From Roseococcus suduntuyensis (GTDB taxonomy: Bacteria; Pseudomonadota; Alphaproteobacteria; Acetobacterales; Acetobacteraceae), in NCBI RefSeq assembly GCF_014196305.1, contig NZ_JACIDJ010000003.1, forward strand, positions 310,001 to 374,000: a DNA stretch of 64,000 bases. Reading direction: 5' to 3'. The notes beneath the pieces were generated by a model. That model did no database searches. It was not told the origin of the DNA and saw nothing but the letters and a program-made list of their open reading frames with translations. Each line of letters opens with the position of its first letter. Positions within the stretch are counted from its first letter, which is position 1. Positions 11,073 to 23,420 of this stretch are shown one piece after another. A program made the position numbers and the translations under genes.

Positions 11073-11683
11073 CCCGCCCCGAAACCCTCCGCTCCAATAC
11101 CCAGGTGATGAACCGCGCGGCGCTGACGAAGCGCATCGTGGGCAAGCTGCACAGGCGTGAGGCCGTGGTGGGCGGCATCGGCAATTCCAACTGGGACCTC
11201 TGGGCGGCCGACCCGGCGCGGCCCGAGAATTTCTACATGCTGGGCAGCATGGGCCTGGCCGCGCCCATCGCGCTGGGCGTGGCGCTGGCCCAGCCCGACC
11301 GGCGCGTGCTGGCGCTGGAGGGCGATGGCTCCCTGCTTATGCAGCTGGGCTGCCTCTCCACCATCGCGGCACGGGCGCCGCGCAACCTCGTCATCGTGGT
11401 GTGGGACAACGCCATCTACCAGATCACGGGCGGGCAACCCACGCCGGCCGCGCAGTCGGGCACGGACTGGGTGGCCATCGCGCGCGCCAGCGGCATCGCG
11501 CAAAGCCACTGGGCGGCGGACGAGGCGGAGTTCGACGCGTTGATCGAGACGGCGCTGACCACCGATGGTCCGCATCTGATTGCGGCGCGAATCGACGACG
11601 AGCCCGGTCGCAGCCAGACCGACCGCGATCCGGTGCGCTTCGCCCAGGCCTTCGCCCGCGCCATGGCGCTGCCCGTGGGCTGA
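11069..11683 (+). CDS. ThDP-dependent decarboxylase, beta (C-terminal, ThDP-binding) subunit
   Basis: A 204-residue partner of the preceding gene, starting at its stop (ATGA overlap). It carries the diphosphate/Mg2+-binding motif GDGSLLMQLG beginning near residue 88 and closing with the WDNAIYQITGG region near 112, as in TPP_enzyme_C domains. The family is as for the alpha subunit. Nothing related follows: the next 350 bp on this strand carry no gene. The gene ends 13 bp before a terminator hairpin that is oriented for the opposite strand. Confidence 0.82.
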   Translation: MTRPETLRSNTQVMNRAALTKRIVGKLHRREAVVGGIGNSNWDLWAADPARPENFYMLGSMGLAAPIALGVALAQPDRRVLALEGDGSLLMQLGCLSTIAARAPRNLVIVVWDNAIYQITGGQPTPAAQSGTDWVAIARASGIAQSHWAADEAEFDALIETALTTDGPHLIAARIDDEPGRSQTDRDPVRFAQAFARAMALPVG

Positions 11684-11695
11684 TAACTTCGGATG

Positions 11696-11730
11696 AAAAA
11701 AATGGCCGGAACCCGTGGGGGTTCCGGCCA
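11696..11730 (-). terminator. Intrinsic terminator facing left
   Basis: A perfect 12-bp stem (TGGCCGGAACCC / GGGTTCCGGCCA, 11703-11714 and 11719-11730) with a 4-nt loop is followed, on the minus strand only, by seven U residues (A7 at 11696-11702). On the plus strand no U-run follows. No minus-strand protein gene lies upstream of it. Confidence 0.85.
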
Positions 11731-11937
11731 AAGGAGAGAGGATGCCGGAGGGGGGGAACCGGCACCCTGCGCCAAGCCCGCCCGCGAGGGGCGAAATGGC
11801 ACAATCCGGCGGCACCGGGCCCGCGGGAAAGCCGCGAGGACCTGACGGGGCGGGCTCCACCCTCCCCTGCCCGGCGAGCCGGACGAGGGAGTGGGGGGGG
11901 ATCTGGCGGAGACATCCACCGCACCACCGGAATGATA
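11696..11937 (-). ncRNA. Candidate stress-induced small RNA (about 240 nt, C-rich loops)
   Basis: Bounds are set by an exact GCAAC-N16-CGTT promoter-like motif on the minus strand (11969 to 11945), which predicts a start near 11937, and by the minus-strand intrinsic terminator at 11730-11696. Just before the terminator a hairpin (11765-11742 on the minus strand; arms GTGCCGG and CCGGCAT) shows a loop of TTCCCCCCCT. Another C-rich stretch of nine C lies near 11895-11905, and CTCTCTCCTTT near 11741-11731 is complementary to ribosome-binding sites. C-rich loops and EcfG control recall GsrN of Caulobacter (established knowledge), but no sequence homology is claimed. The 5' end is a prediction. 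Confidence 0.5.
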
Positions 11938-11942
11938 CTGCA

Positions 11943-11969
11943 TCAACGACGCGCCGGCTGCCGCGTTGC
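11943..11969. promoter_or_regulatory. EcfG-like promoter dyad (faces both ways)
   Basis: The minus strand reads GCAAC-N16-CGTT exactly (11969 to 11945), directed into the candidate small RNA. The plus strand reads TCAAC-N16-CGTT (11943-11967), whose -10 ends 67 bp before the transglutaminase-like gene. The element is therefore a partial dyad around one centre. Confidence 0.6.
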
Positions 11970-12033
11970 ATCAGCCGACGCGACTTTCTCTCCCCCCACA
12001 ACAGCCGCCCGCGACCCCGGCCAAGGACCACCC

Positions 12034-12948
12034 ATGCCCGACGTGCAGATCAGCCATCGAACGGAATACGCCTATCAACGTCCGGTGGGCCTGATGCCGC
12101 ACCGGCTCATGCTGCGTCCCCAGGACAGCCACGACCTGCGGCTGCACGAGGCCACGCTGACGGTGGACCCGCCCGCCGCCCGCATGCGCTGGGCGCACGA
12201 CGTCTTCGGCAATTCCATCTGCCACCTGGAATGGGACGAGAACCTCCGCACGCCTTATCTGCGCATCGTCTCGGAGCTGGCGCTGACCCATTACCCCGCC
12301 GGAACCTCGCTGCGGCGGGAGGCGCTGGATCCCCTGGCCGAGCTCTACCCCTTCTCCTACGCGGCCGATGAAATCCCGGACCTGGCCCGCCTGACCGAAC
12401 GCCAGCTGCCCGACCCCGAGCGCCAGGTGGATGCCTGGGCGCGTCGCTTCGCCGCGCGCGAGGGCGGGGTGCACACGCTGGGGCTGCTGGAGGAGATGAC
12501 GCGCGCCATCAAGGCGGAGTTCACCTATGTGGGGCGCGAGGCCGAGGGCACCCAGGCCCCGGCCGAGACGCTGTCCATGGGCAGCGGCACCTGCCGGGAC
12601 TTCGCCGTGCTGATGATGGAGGCCGCGCGCAGCCTGGGCTTCGCCGCGCGCTTCATCACAGGTTACCTCTACGAGGAGCCGGACGCCCCCAACCAGGGCG
12701 CCGGCGCCACCCATGCCTGGTGCGGGGTCTATCTGCCGGGGGCCGGTTGGGTGGAATATGATCCGACGAACGGCATCATCGCCGGGCAAAACCTCATCCG
12801 GGTAGGGGTGACACGCACCCCCGCGCAGGCCATGCCGGTCGCCGGCGGCTTCGTGGGGGACCCCTCGGACCCGCTGCCTCTCACGGTGGAGGTCCAGGCC
12901 AGGGCGGTGCCGGCACCGCACGGCACGCCGGGAGGCCAGAGCAACTGA
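12034..12948 (+). CDS. Transglutaminase-like cysteine protease family protein
   Basis: A 304-residue cytoplasmic protein with an N-terminal bacterial transglutaminase-like domain (about 1-80; HRTEYAYQRPVG) and a transglutaminase core. The catalytic triad is visible as C187 (GSGTCRDF), H227 (GATHAW) and D243 (YDPTNG). Members are predicted peptidases or amidases, often beside circularly permuted ATP-grasp and alpha-E genes, which are absent here. The gene stands alone between the putative bidirectional stress promoter at 11943-11969 and the sensor kinase gene. No signal peptide is seen. Confidence 0.85.
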   Translation: MPDVQISHRTEYAYQRPVGLMPHRLMLRPQDSHDLRLHEATLTVDPPAARMRWAHDVFGNSICHLEWDENLRTPYLRIVSELALTHYPAGTSLRREALDPLAELYPFSYAADEIPDLARLTERQLPDPERQVDAWARRFAAREGGVHTLGLLEEMTRAIKAEFTYVGREAEGTQAPAETLSMGSGTCRDFAVLMMEAARSLGFAARFITGYLYEEPDAPNQGAGATHAWCGVYLPGAGWVEYDPTNGIIAGQNLIRVGVTRTPAQAMPVAGGFVGDPSDPLPLTVEVQARAVPAPHGTPGGQSN

Positions 12949-13018: not shown

Positions 13019-15829
13019 GTGCCCCTCGCGCTCATTGCGTTTCTTGGACTGCTCTTCGCGCTGATTCCCGCCGGCATCGTCCAGGTGCAGCTGGAACGCG
13101 AGGCGCGGGACACGCGCACGCGGGACCTCGAGGCCCAGGCCATGCAGCTGGCGAGCCTGGTGGGCCGCCAGGTGGCCAGCACCCTGGAGAGCGCGCGCCA
13201 CACGCTGCGGACCATGGCCGCGCATGAGGATGTGCGCCGCCTGGAGGCCAGCGCCGCCTGCGACCTGTTCCTCCAGCGCGTGGTGGCCGTGGCGCCGCGC
13301 TATGCCACGGCCAATGTCTTCGACCGCGAAGGGAACGCGCTCTGCGCCTCCAACCCGGCCGTGCTGTCCACCAATGTGGCCGACCGCCCCTATTTCCAGC
13401 GCACCCTTCGCTCGGGCCGCATGGAGCTCGGTGAGTTCGCCACGGGGCGGGCCAGCGGCCAGGCCTCGCTGCACATGAGCCAGCCGCTGATGGGCGCGGA
13501 TGGCGAGGTGGCCGGCGTGCTCGTCATCGCCATCTCGGTCGGGTGGCTGAACGATGAATTGCAGGCCCTGCTGCTGCCCGAGGGCGGCGTCGCCGTCATC
13601 GCCGACCGCGCGGGCAACGTCGTCGCGCGCTCCGCCGCGCGGGAGCGCTTCGTGGGCCGCCCGCTCGGCGCCCAGGGGATGACCATGCTCCGTGCCCGCG
13701 CCCCGGGCGTGATGGAGGCCACCTCGCTCGACGGCGTGGTCCGCACCGTGGCCTACCTGCCCGTGGAGATCGAGCCCGAGGGTCTCTTCGTCGCGGTCGG
13801 GCTCGACACCGCCAGCGCCATCGCCGCGCAGGAGGACGCCAATGTCGAGGCGGCGGTGATGGTGGTGGGATCGCTGCTGCTGACCTTCGTGGTGGGCCTC
13901 GTCTTCTTCAACGCGGCGGTGGACAGGCCGGTGCAGCGCATGCTGCGCGCGGCCAACCACTGGGCGCGGCAGGACTGGGGCGCGCGCGTGGGCCATATCC
14001 GCGGCGGGCGGGAATTCCAGCGCCTGGCCGCGGCCCTCGACAGCATGGCGGATGCGGTGCTGACGCGCGAGGCGGCGCGGCGCCGCGCGCTGACCCGCAT
14101 GGAGGCGGTGGTGGGCGTGGCCCCGCAGATCGTGATGACCGCCGACCGCGCCGGCCATGTGGACTGGACCAACCCCTACTGGCAGGAGCTGACGGGCTTC
14201 GACAACGCCCGCAGCCTGGGGCTGGGCTGGATGGACGCCACCCACCCCGAGGACCAGCCCGGGCTGCGCGCGGCCTGGGACGCCATGGTGGCGAGCGGCC
14301 TGGGCGATGGCGCGCAGGGGTTCAGCCATGAGGTGCGGCTCTGCCGCGCGGAGGACAAGCAATGGCGCTGGCACCTGATGAAGGGCGCGGCCATCCGGCA
14401 TGATCCGTCGGAGATCGCGGCCTGGGCCATGGTCGGCATCGATTTCCACGAGCTGCGCGTCATCCAGGCCCAGGCCGAGGACACGGCGGCGCAGCTGCGC
14501 GCCACCTATGAGAACGCGCCGGTGGGCCTTTGCCTGGTGGACCGCGACCTGCGCTTCATCGCCATCAACGACATGCTGGCCGCCATCCATGGCGTGCCAG
14601 TGGCCGACCATATCGGGCGGACGCTGTCCGAGGTGGCGCCCGACATGCCGCCCGTCATCGAGGAGGCCATGCGCCGCGTGGTCGCCACGGGGGAGCCTGT
14701 GGAGGAGCTGGAGGTCACCTGCGAGGTGGACGGCCAGCCCCGCTTCTGGCTGGCCAGCTACCGGCCCATCCGCGGCAGTGACGGCTCCATCACCTGCGTC
14801 ACCGGCTCGAAGGTGGACATCACGGCGCGCAAGCGCGTGGAGGAGAGCGAGCGCCTGCTCTCGCGCGAGGTGGACCACCGCGCGCAGAACGCCCTGGCCG
14901 TGGTGCGCGGCCTGATCCGCCTCTCCGCGGCCGACGCGCCCGATGACGTGCCGGCGCTGGTGGAGGTGCTGGAGGGGCGGATCGCGGCGATGAGCCGCGC
15001 GCACACCCTGCTCTCGCGCGAGAAATGGGTGGGGGCCGAACTGAGCGAGATCGTGCGCGAGGAATTCGCCCCGCAATCGGGCCGCATCCATGCCGAGGGC
15101 CCGCCCGTGCGCCTGACGGCCGAGGCCGCGCAGCCGCTGACCCTCGTGCTGCACGAACTCGTGACGAATGCGCTGAAATACGGCGCGCTCTCCGTGCCCG
15201 AGGGGCAGGTCACGCTGCGCTGGACGCGCCAGCAGGACAAGCTGCACATGCAGTGGTGCGAGGAGGGCGGGCCGCCCATGGTGCAGGCGCCGCTGCGCCG
15301 CGGCTTCGGCACCCGGCTGATCGACGCCAACATCCGCGGCCTGCTGGCCGGCGACATCGAGCGCGACTGGGCCGAGACCGGCCTGCGCTGCACCCTGGTG
15401 CTGGGCGCGGAGGCGCTGGCCGGCAGCCGTTTCGTGACGGGGCTGCGCGAGACCTCGCCGCTCGCCGGCCGGCGCGTGATCGTGGCGGTGGAGAACGCGG
15501 GCGAGGCGCGGAGCCTCGCGGGGCTGCTGCGCGCCTCGGGCTGCGCCGTGCTCGGCCCCGCCACCAGCATCGAGGAGGCGGTGGAACTCATCGAGGCCGA
15601 GAAGCGCGTGGACGCGGCCGTGCTGTCGGGCACGCTGCAAGGCCGCTCGGCGCAGCCTCTGGCGCAATTGCTGCGGCGCCGCGCCTCGGCGCTGCTGTTC
15701 CTCAACACGCTTGGCCTCGACAACGAGAGCGACGAGGCGCCGCCGCGCATGCTGCGCCCGCCGCACACCGCCGAGGGCATCCGCCGCGCGCTGGTGGAGG
15801 CGTTGGAGGCTTCGCGAAACGATAGCTGA
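13019..15829 (+). CDS. HWE-family sensor histidine kinase with Cache, HAMP, two PAS and a degenerate receiver
   Basis: A 936-residue membrane sensor. Its first helix (about 3-22) is followed by a periplasmic Cache-type domain (about 25-265), a second helix (about 280-302), HAMP (about 303-355) and PAS domains near 365-480 and 495-605. The HWE kinase core follows, with phospho-acceptor H620 in EVDHRAQN and the family's QWCEEGGP in the ATPase domain. The C-terminal receiver (about 820-936) has Ser870 where the phospho-Asp should be (AAVLSGTL), and the KP pair reads RP, so it cannot be phosphorylated normally. The start is a GTG at 13019 with CGGGAG upstream. HWE kinases feed PhyR in alphaproteobacteria, and phyR lies 5 kb away. 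That link is inferred. Confidence 0.88.
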   Translation: MPLALIAFLGLLFALIPAGIVQVQLEREARDTRTRDLEAQAMQLASLVGRQVASTLESARHTLRTMAAHEDVRRLEASAACDLFLQRVVAVAPRYATANVFDREGNALCASNPAVLSTNVADRPYFQRTLRSGRMELGEFATGRASGQASLHMSQPLMGADGEVAGVLVIAISVGWLNDELQALLLPEGGVAVIADRAGNVVARSAARERFVGRPLGAQGMTMLRARAPGVMEATSLDGVVRTVAYLPVEIEPEGLFVAVGLDTASAIAAQEDANVEAAVMVVGSLLLTFVVGLVFFNAAVDRPVQRMLRAANHWARQDWGARVGHIRGGREFQRLAAALDSMADAVLTREAARRRALTRMEAVVGVAPQIVMTADRAGHVDWTNPYWQELTGFDNARSLGLGWMDATHPEDQPGLRAAWDAMVASGLGDGAQGFSHEVRLCRAEDKQWRWHLMKGAAIRHDPSEIAAWAMVGIDFHELRVIQAQAEDTAAQLRATYENAPVGLCLVDRDLRFIAINDMLAAIHGVPVADHIGRTLSEVAPDMPPVIEEAMRRVVATGEPVEELEVTCEVDGQPRFWLASYRPIRGSDGSITCVTGSKVDITARKRVEESERLLSREVDHRAQNALAVVRGLIRLSAADAPDDVPALVEVLEGRIAAMSRAHTLLSREKWVGAELSEIVREEFAPQSGRIHAEGPPVRLTAEAAQPLTLVLHELVTNALKYGALSVPEGQVTLRWTRQQDKLHMQWCEEGGPPMVQAPLRRGFGTRLIDANIRGLLAGDIERDWAETGLRCTLVLGAEALAGSRFVTGLRETSPLAGRRVIVAVENAGEARSLAGLLRASGCAVLGPATSIEEAVELIEAEKRVDAAVLSGTLQGRSAQPLAQLLRRRASALLFLNTLGLDNESDEAPPRMLRPPHTAEGIRRALVEALEASRNDS

Positions 15830-21087: not shown

Positions 21088-21810
21088 TCACGGAATGGGC
21101 ACGCGCCCGGCATGGACCGCCTGGTAGGTGGCGATCGCGAGGCTCAGCGGGTCGAAGGGCTTGCGGACGATGAAGGCGGGCTCAATGCCCTCCGCCGTCA
21201 GCAGCAACTCGGGATAGGCGGTCACGAAGATCACGGGCGTGATCGTGCTCTCCATGATGGTCCGCACGGCCGAGATGCCACTGCCGCCCCGGCCCAGGTT
21301 CACATCGGCCAGGATCAACCCCACGGGGCGTTCATGGGCCAGGCGCACAGCCTCGCGCTCGGTCATGGCGACGCCGGCCACGCGGTGGCCGCAGCCCTGC
21401 ACCAGCATCTGCAGGTCCATCGCGATCACCGGCTCGTCCTCGATGATCAGGATGTCGGTGGCGGCCACCTGGCGCAGGTCGTGCCGGGCCTGGCGCACCT
21501 CCTCGGCGGCCTGATCGGGCGTCATGTCCAGCACCCGGGCGGCATCGGCCAGCGTGACCTCTTCCAGCGCCGTCAGCAGCAAAAGCTGGCGCTGCACCAG
21601 CGTCAGCCCCGGCGCGTCGCGCTGCGGATGGTCGCGCATCAGTTGGGTGATGGCGGCATAGAAACCGAGGCGCGGCGGCAGGTCCTGGGGCATGCGCGGG
21701 ATGGCGCGGCCCACCAGCCCGTCGCCCTCCCCCTGGCTGCCGGTGAGCGCGCGGGCGAAACGGCGGGCATAAGGCAGGGCTGCGATCAGCTCCTGCTGGG
21801 TGGCGCTCAT
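21088..21810 (-). CDS. phyR: PhyR-type response regulator, anti-anti-sigma factor of the general stress response
   Basis: A 240-residue regulator with an N-terminal sigma-like domain (about 1-115; LTALEEVTLADAARVLDMTPDQA is the sigma4-like part). A C-terminal receiver follows (about 118-235; ILIIEDEPVIAMDLQ, phospho-Asp in LILADVNLG, VRKPFDP). When phosphorylated, PhyR binds NepR and frees EcfG (established knowledge). Its genomic neighbours are two ECF sigma genes and nepR, divergent from it. The architecture is complete. No EcfG-like motif was found in its 44-bp upstream gap. Confidence 0.95.
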   Translation of the reverse strand: MSATQQELIAALPYARRFARALTGSQGEGDGLVGRAIPRMPQDLPPRLGFYAAITQLMRDHPQRDAPGLTLVQRQLLLLTALEEVTLADAARVLDMTPDQAAEEVRQARHDLRQVAATDILIIEDEPVIAMDLQMLVQGCGHRVAGVAMTEREAVRLAHERPVGLILADVNLGRGGSGISAVRTIMESTITPVIFVTAYPELLLTAEGIEPAFIVRKPFDPLSLAIATYQAVHAGRVPIP

Positions 21811-21854: not shown

Positions 21855-22403
21855 ATGCCCAAACTCCGGCCGCGCGGGAATGACGTAATGCAGGAGGATG
21901 CCGCGAAGGCCAATGCCGAGGCCGCGTTCCGCACGGCGCTGGTGGCGCTGATGCCGTCGCTGCGCGGCTATGGACGGGCGCTGAGCGGCTCCGTCGCCGC
22001 CGCGGATGAGCTGGTGCAGGAGACGCTGCTGCGCGCCCTGTCCAGCGAACGCCGCATGACGGAGGTGGGGGAGCTGCGCGCCTGGGTCTTCACTATCTTG
22101 CGCCACGCCTGGTTGTCCGGCCTGCGGGCGGGACGGCGGCTGACGCCATTGGAGGAGGGAATGGAGGGCGTGGCCGGGCCGGCGGACAGCCTGGCCCTCG
22201 ATGACCTGGCGCGCGCCATGCGCACCCTGCCCGCCCCGCAGCGCGAGGCGGTGGTGCTGATGGGGGCCCAGGGCATGTCCGCCACCGAGGCCGCGCGGAT
22301 CTGCGGCGTGCCGGAGGGCACCATGCGCGCACGCCTCAGCCGGGCGCGGAGCGCCTTGCGGCGCGCGCTCGAGCCTAGGTTGCGGACCCCTCCAGGTGTT
22401 TGA
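21855..22403 (+). CDS. ECF sigma factor (EcfG-like paralogue)
   Basis: A protein of 182 residues, or 171 if it starts at 21888. It has sigma2 (about 25-90; RGYGRALSGSVAAADELVQETLLRA, LRAWVFTILRHAWLSGLR) and sigma4 (about 120-175; LPAPQREAVVLMGAQGMSATEAARICGVPEGTMRARLSRAR). It is divergent from phyR and directly upstream of a second sigma gene. Having no anti-sigma partner of its own, it may be a second GSR sigma that shares NepR. The start is uncertain, since neither candidate has a strong ribosome site. Confidence 0.88.
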   Translation: MPKLRPRGNDVMQEDAAKANAEAAFRTALVALMPSLRGYGRALSGSVAAADELVQETLLRALSSERRMTEVGELRAWVFTILRHAWLSGLRAGRRLTPLEEGMEGVAGPADSLALDDLARAMRTLPAPQREAVVLMGAQGMSATEAARICGVPEGTMRARLSRARSALRRALEPRLRTPPGV

Positions 22404-22485: not shown

Positions 22486-23214
22486 ATGAAGTCCGAGCCT
22501 CAGCGTTGGGGGGGCATGCGAGCACCGGACACAAACACGATGCCCCTCCCCCAGGACGACCAGGCCGAGGCCACCATGGTCGACTCCGCACCCGAGGTCA
22601 GCTTCCATGACCTCCTTGTCGCTGCCCTGCCCGCCTTGCGGCAGCAGGCCCTGGCGCTGACGCGCAACCGCGCCGATGCCGACGACCTGGTGCAGACCAG
22701 CGTCAGCAGCGCGCTGGCCGCGCAGACCTCCTTCCAGCCCGGCACGAATTTCGGCGCCTGGATGGCGCGCATCCTGCGCAACCGCTTCCTTTCCAACATG
22801 CGCCGCCGGCGCGAGATCGTGGACATCGAGGATGCCCCCGCCTCCCTGCTCGCCCGCAGCGGCGGCCAGGAAGAGGGGCTGGCCATCCAGCAGCTCCGCC
22901 ACCTGATCGGCAAGCTGCCGGCGGATCATCGCCTCGTGCTGATCATGATCTCCGTGCAGGGCCTTTCCTATGAGGAAGCCTCGGAGCAGCTCAACGTGCC
23001 GGTCGGCACGCTGAAGTGCCGCGTCTCCCGTGCGCGCGCCATGCTGCGCCGCTGGCTGCTGGGCGATGACGAGGCCCCCAAGCCCCGCGTCACCGCGCCC
23101 AAGACCCGCGCGCGCGCTTCCGTGCCTGCTCATGCGCTCTCCGCTTTGCCCGCGGCCCCTGTCATGGCTAAGCTTGGCCGTGACAATGGCGAGGCACAGC
23201 TGGAGCGGCGGTGA
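22486..23214 (+). CDS. ecfG: General stress response ECF sigma factor EcfG
   Basis: A 242-residue sigma factor with sigma2 (about 40-105; ALTRNRADADDLVQTSVSSAL, NFGAWMARILRNRFLSNMRR) and sigma4 (about 130-185; LPADHRLVLIMISVQGLSYEEASEQLNVPVGTLKCRVSRARAMLR read in parts). An unusual Ala/Pro/Arg-rich C-terminal tail of about 50 residues follows. It overlaps nepR by 4 bp (GTGA), the classical arrangement for the GSR sigma. The ATG at 22486 has no ribosome site. ATG 22516, preceded by a G-run, is an alternative. Confidence 0.9.
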   Translation: MKSEPQRWGGMRAPDTNTMPLPQDDQAEATMVDSAPEVSFHDLLVAALPALRQQALALTRNRADADDLVQTSVSSALAAQTSFQPGTNFGAWMARILRNRFLSNMRRRREIVDIEDAPASLLARSGGQEEGLAIQQLRHLIGKLPADHRLVLIMISVQGLSYEEASEQLNVPVGTLKCRVSRARAMLRRWLLGDDEAPKPRVTAPKTRARASVPAHALSALPAAPVMAKLGRDNGEAQLERR

Positions 23215-23420
23215 GCGGCGATACGGAAGAACCGGACAGGCCTGGACCACGGATGAGCAAGCCTGGCTCCCCTCCGAAGCGCGCCCGCAAGGCACCCTCG
23301 GACAAGGCGTTCGACCTCTGGCTCGACCAGGGTTTGCACGCCATGTTCGACGAGGTGGCGAAGGAGCCGATTCCGGAAGAGCTGCTGCGTCTGATCGAGC
23401 AGGACCGGAACAACAAATAG
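23211..23420 (+). CDS. nepR: NepR anti-sigma factor
   Basis: A 69-residue protein that binds and silences EcfG until phosphorylated PhyR captures it. Two amphipathic helices typical of NepR are visible: KAFDLWLDQGLHAMFDEVAK (about 32-51) and PEELLRLIEQ (about 55-64), linked by the conserved PIPEE. The disordered charged N-terminus is also typical. It starts with GTG overlapping the sigma gene stop. An intrinsic terminator follows 41 bp after the stop. Confidence 0.92.
   Translation: MSGDTEEPDRPGPRMSKPGSPPKRARKAPSDKAFDLWLDQGLHAMFDEVAKEPIPEELLRLIEQDRNNK

Follow-up and report, generated by a model that had tools for sequence, protein, structure and literature searches.

Does the 350-bp gap that separates two plus-strand genes at positions 11684-12033 of a 64-kb stretch of Roseococcus suduntuyensis DNA (the window, that is, the whole stretch analysed) encode a stress-controlled small RNA on its minus strand? 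Such an RNA, with C-rich loops and under EcfG control, had been proposed in an earlier note, and we hypothesize, with a probability of roughly two in three, that the gap encodes an EcfG-controlled, GsrN-like minus-strand sRNA of about 242 nt (Table 1). The hypothesis is built from features of the sequence, namely the island context, a promoter motif, C-runs and a terminator that are kept in three genomes, and a predicted fold that, with caveats, favours the minus strand. The window is a general-stress-response island containing phyR, nepR, two ECF genes and the gene of an HWE kinase that is a putative stress sensor; CsbD and a ferritin-like gene, assigned by Pfam, also belong to it. The two ECF genes stand side by side and both match Pfam PhyR_sigma2. 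The candidate is located 9.2 kb from phyR, 11.3 kb from nepR and 1.1 kb from the HWE kinase gene, and is not immediately adjacent to any of them.

Table 1. Coordinates of the predicted sRNA, its parts and the neighbouring genes in the window.
Feature	Position	Strand	Basis or remark
TPP-enzyme gene (C-terminal part)	end at 11683	+	upstream flank of the gap
Predicted sRNA, ~242 nt	11696..11938	-	start placed from the position of the -10 box
Intrinsic terminator, 12-pair stem, loop of 4, U7	11696..11730	-	terminator search; kept in G003 and G020
Linker CUCUCUCCUUU, able to pair with Shine-Dalgarno sequences	11730..11740	-	core UCUCCUUU invariant in 3 genomes
Hairpin with C-rich loop UUCCCCCCCU	11739..11768	-	loop predicted fully unpaired
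5' domain, 11-pair outer helix (11931-11921 with 11815-11805) and inner hairpins	11805..11931	-	consensus fold
C8 run, predicted mostly unpaired, invariant in 3 genomes	11893..11900	-	alignment, unpaired-probability profile
EcfG-type promoter of the sRNA, GCAAC-N16-CGTT	11945..11969	-	pattern search; boxes and spacing the same in G003 and G020
Plus-strand reading of the near-palindromic site, TCAAC-N16-CGTT	11944..11968	+	~90 nt ahead of the transglutaminase start
Transglutaminase-like gene	12034..12948	+	Pfam Bact_transglu_N, Transglut_core; divergent neighbour, probable EcfG target
HWE histidine kinase gene, putative stress sensor	13019..15829	+	Pfam HWE_HK, dCache_1, PAS
phyR	21088..21810	-	Pfam PhyR_sigma2, PhyR_sigma-like, Response_reg
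Second ECF sigma gene	21855..22403	+	Pfam
ECF sigma gene taken as ecfG	22486..23214	+	Pfam; overlaps nepR
nepR	23211..23420	+	

The site from which the minus strand would be transcribed reads GCAAC-N16-CGTT, as claimed, with a -35 box ending in AAC, a spacer in the range of 16-17 nt and a CGTT -10 box. In the congeneric genome G020 its spacer carries two changes, with boxes and spacing unchanged. The textbook EcfG -35 box is GGAAC, in place of which this promoter has GCAAC. In 18 other stress islands (all but one from other genera, chosen from 66 genomes with a PhyR match, mostly high-scoring), GCAAC was found 28 times at a spacer of 16 nt and 13 times at 17 nt, with 1, 1 and 3 cases at 14, 15 and 18 nt, whereas GGAAC occurred 5 times at spacer 16 and 4 times at spacer 17. 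GCAAC is therefore the commonest EcfG -35 box in this group of islands. In the available excerpts of a Sphingopyxis study, GGAAC and GCAAC are likewise the two most frequent EcfG -35 boxes (PMC7083833). The pattern G[CG]AAC-N16/17-CGTT occurs 84 times in the 4.14-Mb genome, compared with 61 occurrences of the reversed control pattern, and would be expected only rarely in a random 350-bp gap. Five GCAAC-N16-CGTT sites are found inside 10.5 kb of the window, and the stress-island stretches of G020 and of a second congeneric genome, G003, contain five each. Three of the four other window sites stand 19-32 nt ahead of a Shine-Dalgarno sequence and an ATG, and the remaining one (22446, minus) runs antisense to an ECF gene. 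In this genome the script marked no start codon beyond the sRNA site; the start-like strings that it marked 76 and 87 nt past the site in G003 and G020, respectively, are not common to the genomes.

On the minus strand, the terminator begins 214 nt past the -10 box. It is one of only three strong terminators found on both strands of the 64-kb window under stricter criteria, under which five block shuffles of the window gave none, and there is no minus-strand gene to explain it. None of 30 distinct EcfG-like sites, out of the 84 in the genome (34 rows, some with overlapping loci), has a strong terminator within 380 nt downstream. Most parts named in the earlier note were recovered: the textbook terminator at 11730-11696, a transcript length of about 240 nt (about 242 nt from the positions of promoter and terminator), the hairpin with a loop of seven C, and the stretch able to pair with ribosome sites, CTCTCTCCTTT, at 11740-11730. 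The supposed run of nine C is in fact eight (11900-11893). According to the unpaired-probability profile, the accessible segments are AGAUCCCCCC(CC) from nt 35, UUCCCCCCCU at nt 181-190 and CUCUCCUU at nt 201-208. The loop UUCCCCCCCU has seven C in this genome and G003 and nine in G020; the linker is predicted to be open in this genome and G003 and only partly so in G020, where CUCUCCUU is also only partly open.

The same near-palindromic site faces the transglutaminase gene, and the alternative that survives best, although we consider it unlikely, is that the site serves only this plus-strand gene, the minus-strand match being a by-product of a near-palindromic consensus (AAC and GTT are mutual reverse complements) and the terminator serving to stop antisense transcription. 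When T was also accepted as the first base of the pattern, all six close orthologues of the genus (at least 66% identity, this genome included) had a site directed at the gene, and none of ten remoter copies did. In three of these six, from other genomes of the genus and with 66-71% identity, an exact GCAAC faces the gene at a distance of 57-61 nt. The unwidened pattern gave 13 sites in 78 upstream regions of named genomes; four orthologues from MAGs (one Rubritepida, two Acetobacteraceae and one Alphaproteobacteria) have one directed at the gene from a distance of 57-72 nt, and of these the Rubritepida region probably duplicates that of the genome G017. Hence, the transglutaminase gene is probably the older EcfG target. 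Against a promoter for this gene alone, however, it is the minus reading that has the exact GCAAC, whereas the plus reading begins with TCAAC, a box found in at most 1 of the 53 NNAAC-N16-CGTT sites of the 18 islands; moreover, the strong terminator is found on the minus side, and the minus strand is the better match for the RNA fold. The near-palindromic site and the motif facing the gene in close orthologues therefore suggest that the site at 11944-11969 is probably a bidirectional EcfG promoter, and the sRNA would have emerged at the opposite side of the transglutaminase promoter. In G017, the divergent EcfG site (L027, likely the same locus as L041) leads, as judged by eye, into a small open frame and not into this RNA. 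A palindromic GCAACG...CGTTGC that can be read as an EcfG promoter in both directions is also present in the stress island of G007 (L155, 2136-2162).

Conservation of the candidate sRNA is confined to close relatives. When the gap was compared by BLAST with 21 genomes of the genus, it was matched over its full length in this genome, G003 (96%) and G020 (88%) alone, and eight other genus genomes had only short matches with E-values of 2e-4 or weaker. Within its own genome the gap is single-copy, and a repeated element was rejected, since the 14 other matches (E up to 1) are all at most 29 bases long. All three genomes have retained the promoter boxes with their spacing, both C-rich elements (the C8 run and the loop), the UCUCCUUU linker and the terminator; conservation of promoter and terminator in relatives, which the earlier note had made a test, is thus seen in G003 and G020, with no convincing homologue in the 18 other genomes of the genus. 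Covariance searches gave a similar picture. A model of the 3' part matched three of 249 family genomes under strict filters; within the genus, strong matches were obtained in 3 of 21 genomes and matches of any strength (E up to 5) in 14 of 21, the best one outside the three genomes (E 0.04) lacking an EcfG site. Nine of the 23 weaker matches in the genus were inspected, and none had an EcfG site within 400 nt upstream. With the 5' model, too, strong matches were confined to three of the 21 genus genomes; at E up to 1 there were 12 weaker matches and 14 of the 21 genomes had a match, the best one outside the three having E 0.036. Both models therefore recover the three genomes, and the 3' model gave no convincing homologue in the rest of the 249 family genomes. 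Nor was any convincing GsrN-like RNA found when sites without a near start in the 18 other stress islands were read by eye; one such site with a strong terminator (L165) was rejected, as it leads into small protein genes.

Comparison of substitution rates suggests constraint on the predicted RNA in one of the two relatives. The sRNA differs from that of G003 at 8 of 243 positions, proportionally fewer than the four-fold sites of the transglutaminase gene (19 of 183, p 0.004) and the third positions of the kinase gene (76 of 936, p 0.007). For G020, the 25 differences in 243 positions equal the divergence of the transglutaminase four-fold sites (19 of 180, p 1.0) and are somewhat below that of the kinase third positions (144 of 936, p 0.05). 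Constraint is therefore visible in the comparison with G003 and not clear in that with G020.

The RNA from 11938 to 11696 is predicted to fold with -135.9 kcal/mol (z -4.83), and none of 200 shuffles was as good. Tested against column shuffles, the consensus fold of the three genomes gave a z of -7.86 for the minus strand. Many of the stems can also form in plus-strand RNA, whose consensus fold has a z of -3.56 with 1 of 200 column shuffles as good. This raises a second alternative, that the structure belongs to the plus strand as a 3' UTR of the TPP gene or a long transglutaminase leader, which we regard as quite improbable: there the hairpin is followed by AAAGGAGAG and not by U, and when the fold of this genome is used as reference, the pairs changed in G020 are broken in 7 of 8 cases on the plus strand as opposed to 3 of 13 on the minus strand (still pairing, 1 of 8 versus 10 of 13; Fisher p 0.0075). 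The same strand trend in retained pairs is obtained with G003 or G020 as the fold reference. Of the pairs in the consensus fold, 13 have changed on one side without losing the pairing, two are broken in one genome and none is altered on both sides in the three genomes; with the fold of G020 itself as reference, one pair is altered on both sides. Covariation shuffles are uninformative for an alignment of three rows.

The substitution pattern also bears on the strand. Against G020, C-U changes outnumber A-G changes by 7 to 1 at unpaired positions of the sRNA, and on the sense strand of genes a C-U excess is likewise seen at third positions of the kinase gene (38 to 16) and phyR (14 to 3), weakly in the transglutaminase gene (10 to 6) and not in the rest of the gap (2 to 2). 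The genetic code also favours a C-U excess in genes. The C-U excess that preserves wobble pairs is thus found where bases are unpaired as well, which is a serious caveat: the pattern gives weak support to minus as the likely sense strand and does not prove pairing.

A protein encoded in the gap is very improbable. On the minus strand, frames of 467, 176 and 167 aa span the gap 11684-12033 and stay open to the transcript end inside the predicted sRNA, and on the plus strand AAAGGAGAGAGGATG resembles a start, with a good ribosome site ahead of the ATG at 11742. However, single-base length differences among the three genomes inside the predicted RNA shift the minus frames, which we therefore take to be spurious, and their starts in G020 differ from those in the other genomes; the description of the gap as 350 bp without a minus-strand gene holds on this basis. 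On the plus strand, the ATG at 11742 is GTG in G003, and relative to this genome the G-run differs in length by one base in G003, which therefore is out of frame there, and by three bases in G020.

That the candidate is a divergent member of the suhB/MmgR family (RF00519) is hardly credible, and membership was rejected, since the weak full-length match of its 3' part (22.6 bits, E 0.016 in a 401-base search) lies below the gathering cut-off of 41 bits, looks to be carried mainly by the terminator and ranks only seventh in this genome, behind matches of 32.4, 30.7, 27.5 and 23.5 bits and two true suhB genes that exceed the Rfam cut-off (G000:C4:142903-142980, minus, 50.8 bits; G000:C6:239101-239179, plus, 45.4 bits). 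The two share an alphaproteobacterial origin, a C-rich linker and a strong terminator. A C-rich loop and a terminator are also features of ar7 (RF02342), for which the score was 16.8 bits against a gathering cut-off of 60, and the matches to other Rfam families (12 matches at E up to 5) were all under their cut-offs.

We thus return to the EcfG-controlled sRNA and its resemblance to GsrN. According to the available excerpts of the GsrN study, this EcfG-controlled RNA of Caulobacter pairs through a C-rich loop with the first nucleotides of the katG mRNA and raises KatG, is processed to a 5' isoform of 51-54 nt and has been proposed as a post-transcriptional arm of the alphaproteobacterial general stress response (PMC5869019). 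The same excerpts name GsrN-like RNAs in Caulobacteraceae and Rhizobiales and report BLASTn matches of GsrN only within Caulobacteraceae; outside that family, GsrN-like RNAs were recognized by expression, an EcfG site and a position near the stress locus (PMC5869019). The candidate has a near-consensus EcfG site upstream in all three genomes that carry the locus, and lies near ecfG-nepR-phyR. As far as GsrN is described there, the two RNAs also have in common an intrinsic terminator and an exposed C run able to pair with G-rich leaders, and, like the GsrN system, the genome of the candidate encodes Hfq and has a G-tract in the katG leader. The candidate differs from GsrN, which has about 100 nt, in its predicted length of about 242 nt, in exposing three C-rich segments, of which two lie in its 3' half, in its distance of 9 kb from phyR and in a near-palindromic promoter probably shared with the transglutaminase gene. 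The C8 run, at nt 39-46, is predicted to be mostly unpaired but does not lie in a hairpin loop; the clear C-loop comes later, within the 3' half (nt 183-189). The resemblance drawn in the earlier note is thus apt for a possible mode of action, in view of the EcfG site, the position and, in part, the loop; it is not put forward as homology, and the lengths differ. MicA, RybB and MicL of E. coli, as presented in excerpts of PMC8103513, similarly form an sRNA arm of an ECF sigma response, but with another sigma factor and other targets.

We propose the following course of events. PhyR would free EcfG from NepR, and EcfG would then start minus-strand transcription at 11969-11945, the RNA ending at the U7 terminator (11696). 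Both the transcription and its start point are predicted from the motif. The three exposed C- or pyrimidine-rich segments (the C8 run, the C7-9 hairpin loop and the UCUCCUUU linker) would serve as pairing regions for G-rich leaders and Shine-Dalgarno sequences, and Hfq, whose gene is present in all three genomes with the locus, would probably assist. On account of such pairing the candidate may work like GsrN, stabilizing or activating some stress mRNAs, for which katG is the best candidate, and blocking the ribosome sites of others; we infer this direction of regulation, as we do the Hfq dependence. The same site would probably also fire the other way, into the transglutaminase gene.

The targets, katG included, are conjectural. 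The katG leaders of the three genomes contain runs of 7, 6 and 6 G located 79-90 nt ahead of the start codon. In this genome (L182, C1:136182-138362) the 7-G run lies downstream of a stretch that is seemingly conserved in the other two (L180 and L181), which have six G. All three katG leaders were ranked against the leaders and seeds of this genome, with 58 window leaders defined by approximate gene calling, in which the transglutaminase gene was missed: pairing with the loop as strong as that of katG or stronger was found for 1, 5 and 4 of the 58 leaders, with the C8 run for 7, 7 and 12, and with the linker for 17, 20 and 5. Six of the 58 leaders contain a run of at least six G, and katG ranks lower with the C8 run and with the linker than with the loop, so the link is weak and the katG pairing is a lead rather than a result.

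A broader reading, possible if rather doubtful, is that one near-palindromic EcfG site fires both ways to give the transglutaminase mRNA and a lineage-specific, multi-seed sRNA that has converged with GsrN on the logic of C-loop and G-tract, including katG. Were the promoter bidirectional and the RNA independent of GsrN, Alphaproteobacteria would have invented an sRNA arm of the general stress response more than once. A candidate from the Acetobacteraceae group with no homologues detected in most of its genus would point to repeated rebuilding of this arm, with the quasi-palindromic EcfG promoter as a possible origin, and the candidate offers a concrete and testable pairing with katG. In the open literature on EcfG small RNAs and on small RNAs in Acetobacteraceae or Roseococcus, mostly at the level of titles and the beginnings of abstracts, no description of this candidate is apparent.

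Two further EcfG-type sites in the island merit mention. The GCAAC-N16-CGTT at 22446-22422 (minus) points antisense through the whole second ECF gene towards phyR; it is kept in three genomes with a diverged spacer, the second ECF gene being intact (182 aa) in all three, and a long phyR leader antisense to this gene, in an excludon-like arrangement, is possible. A similar antisense layout was noticed by eye at L161 (7833, minus). The site at 18579-18555 (minus) precedes a hydrophobic peptide frame of 25 aa, MRTILLWFLGIPIPILILLLLFGVL, that is identical in three genomes and is followed by a terminator about 112 nt downstream of the site; this frame possibly encodes a membrane peptide of the stress response.
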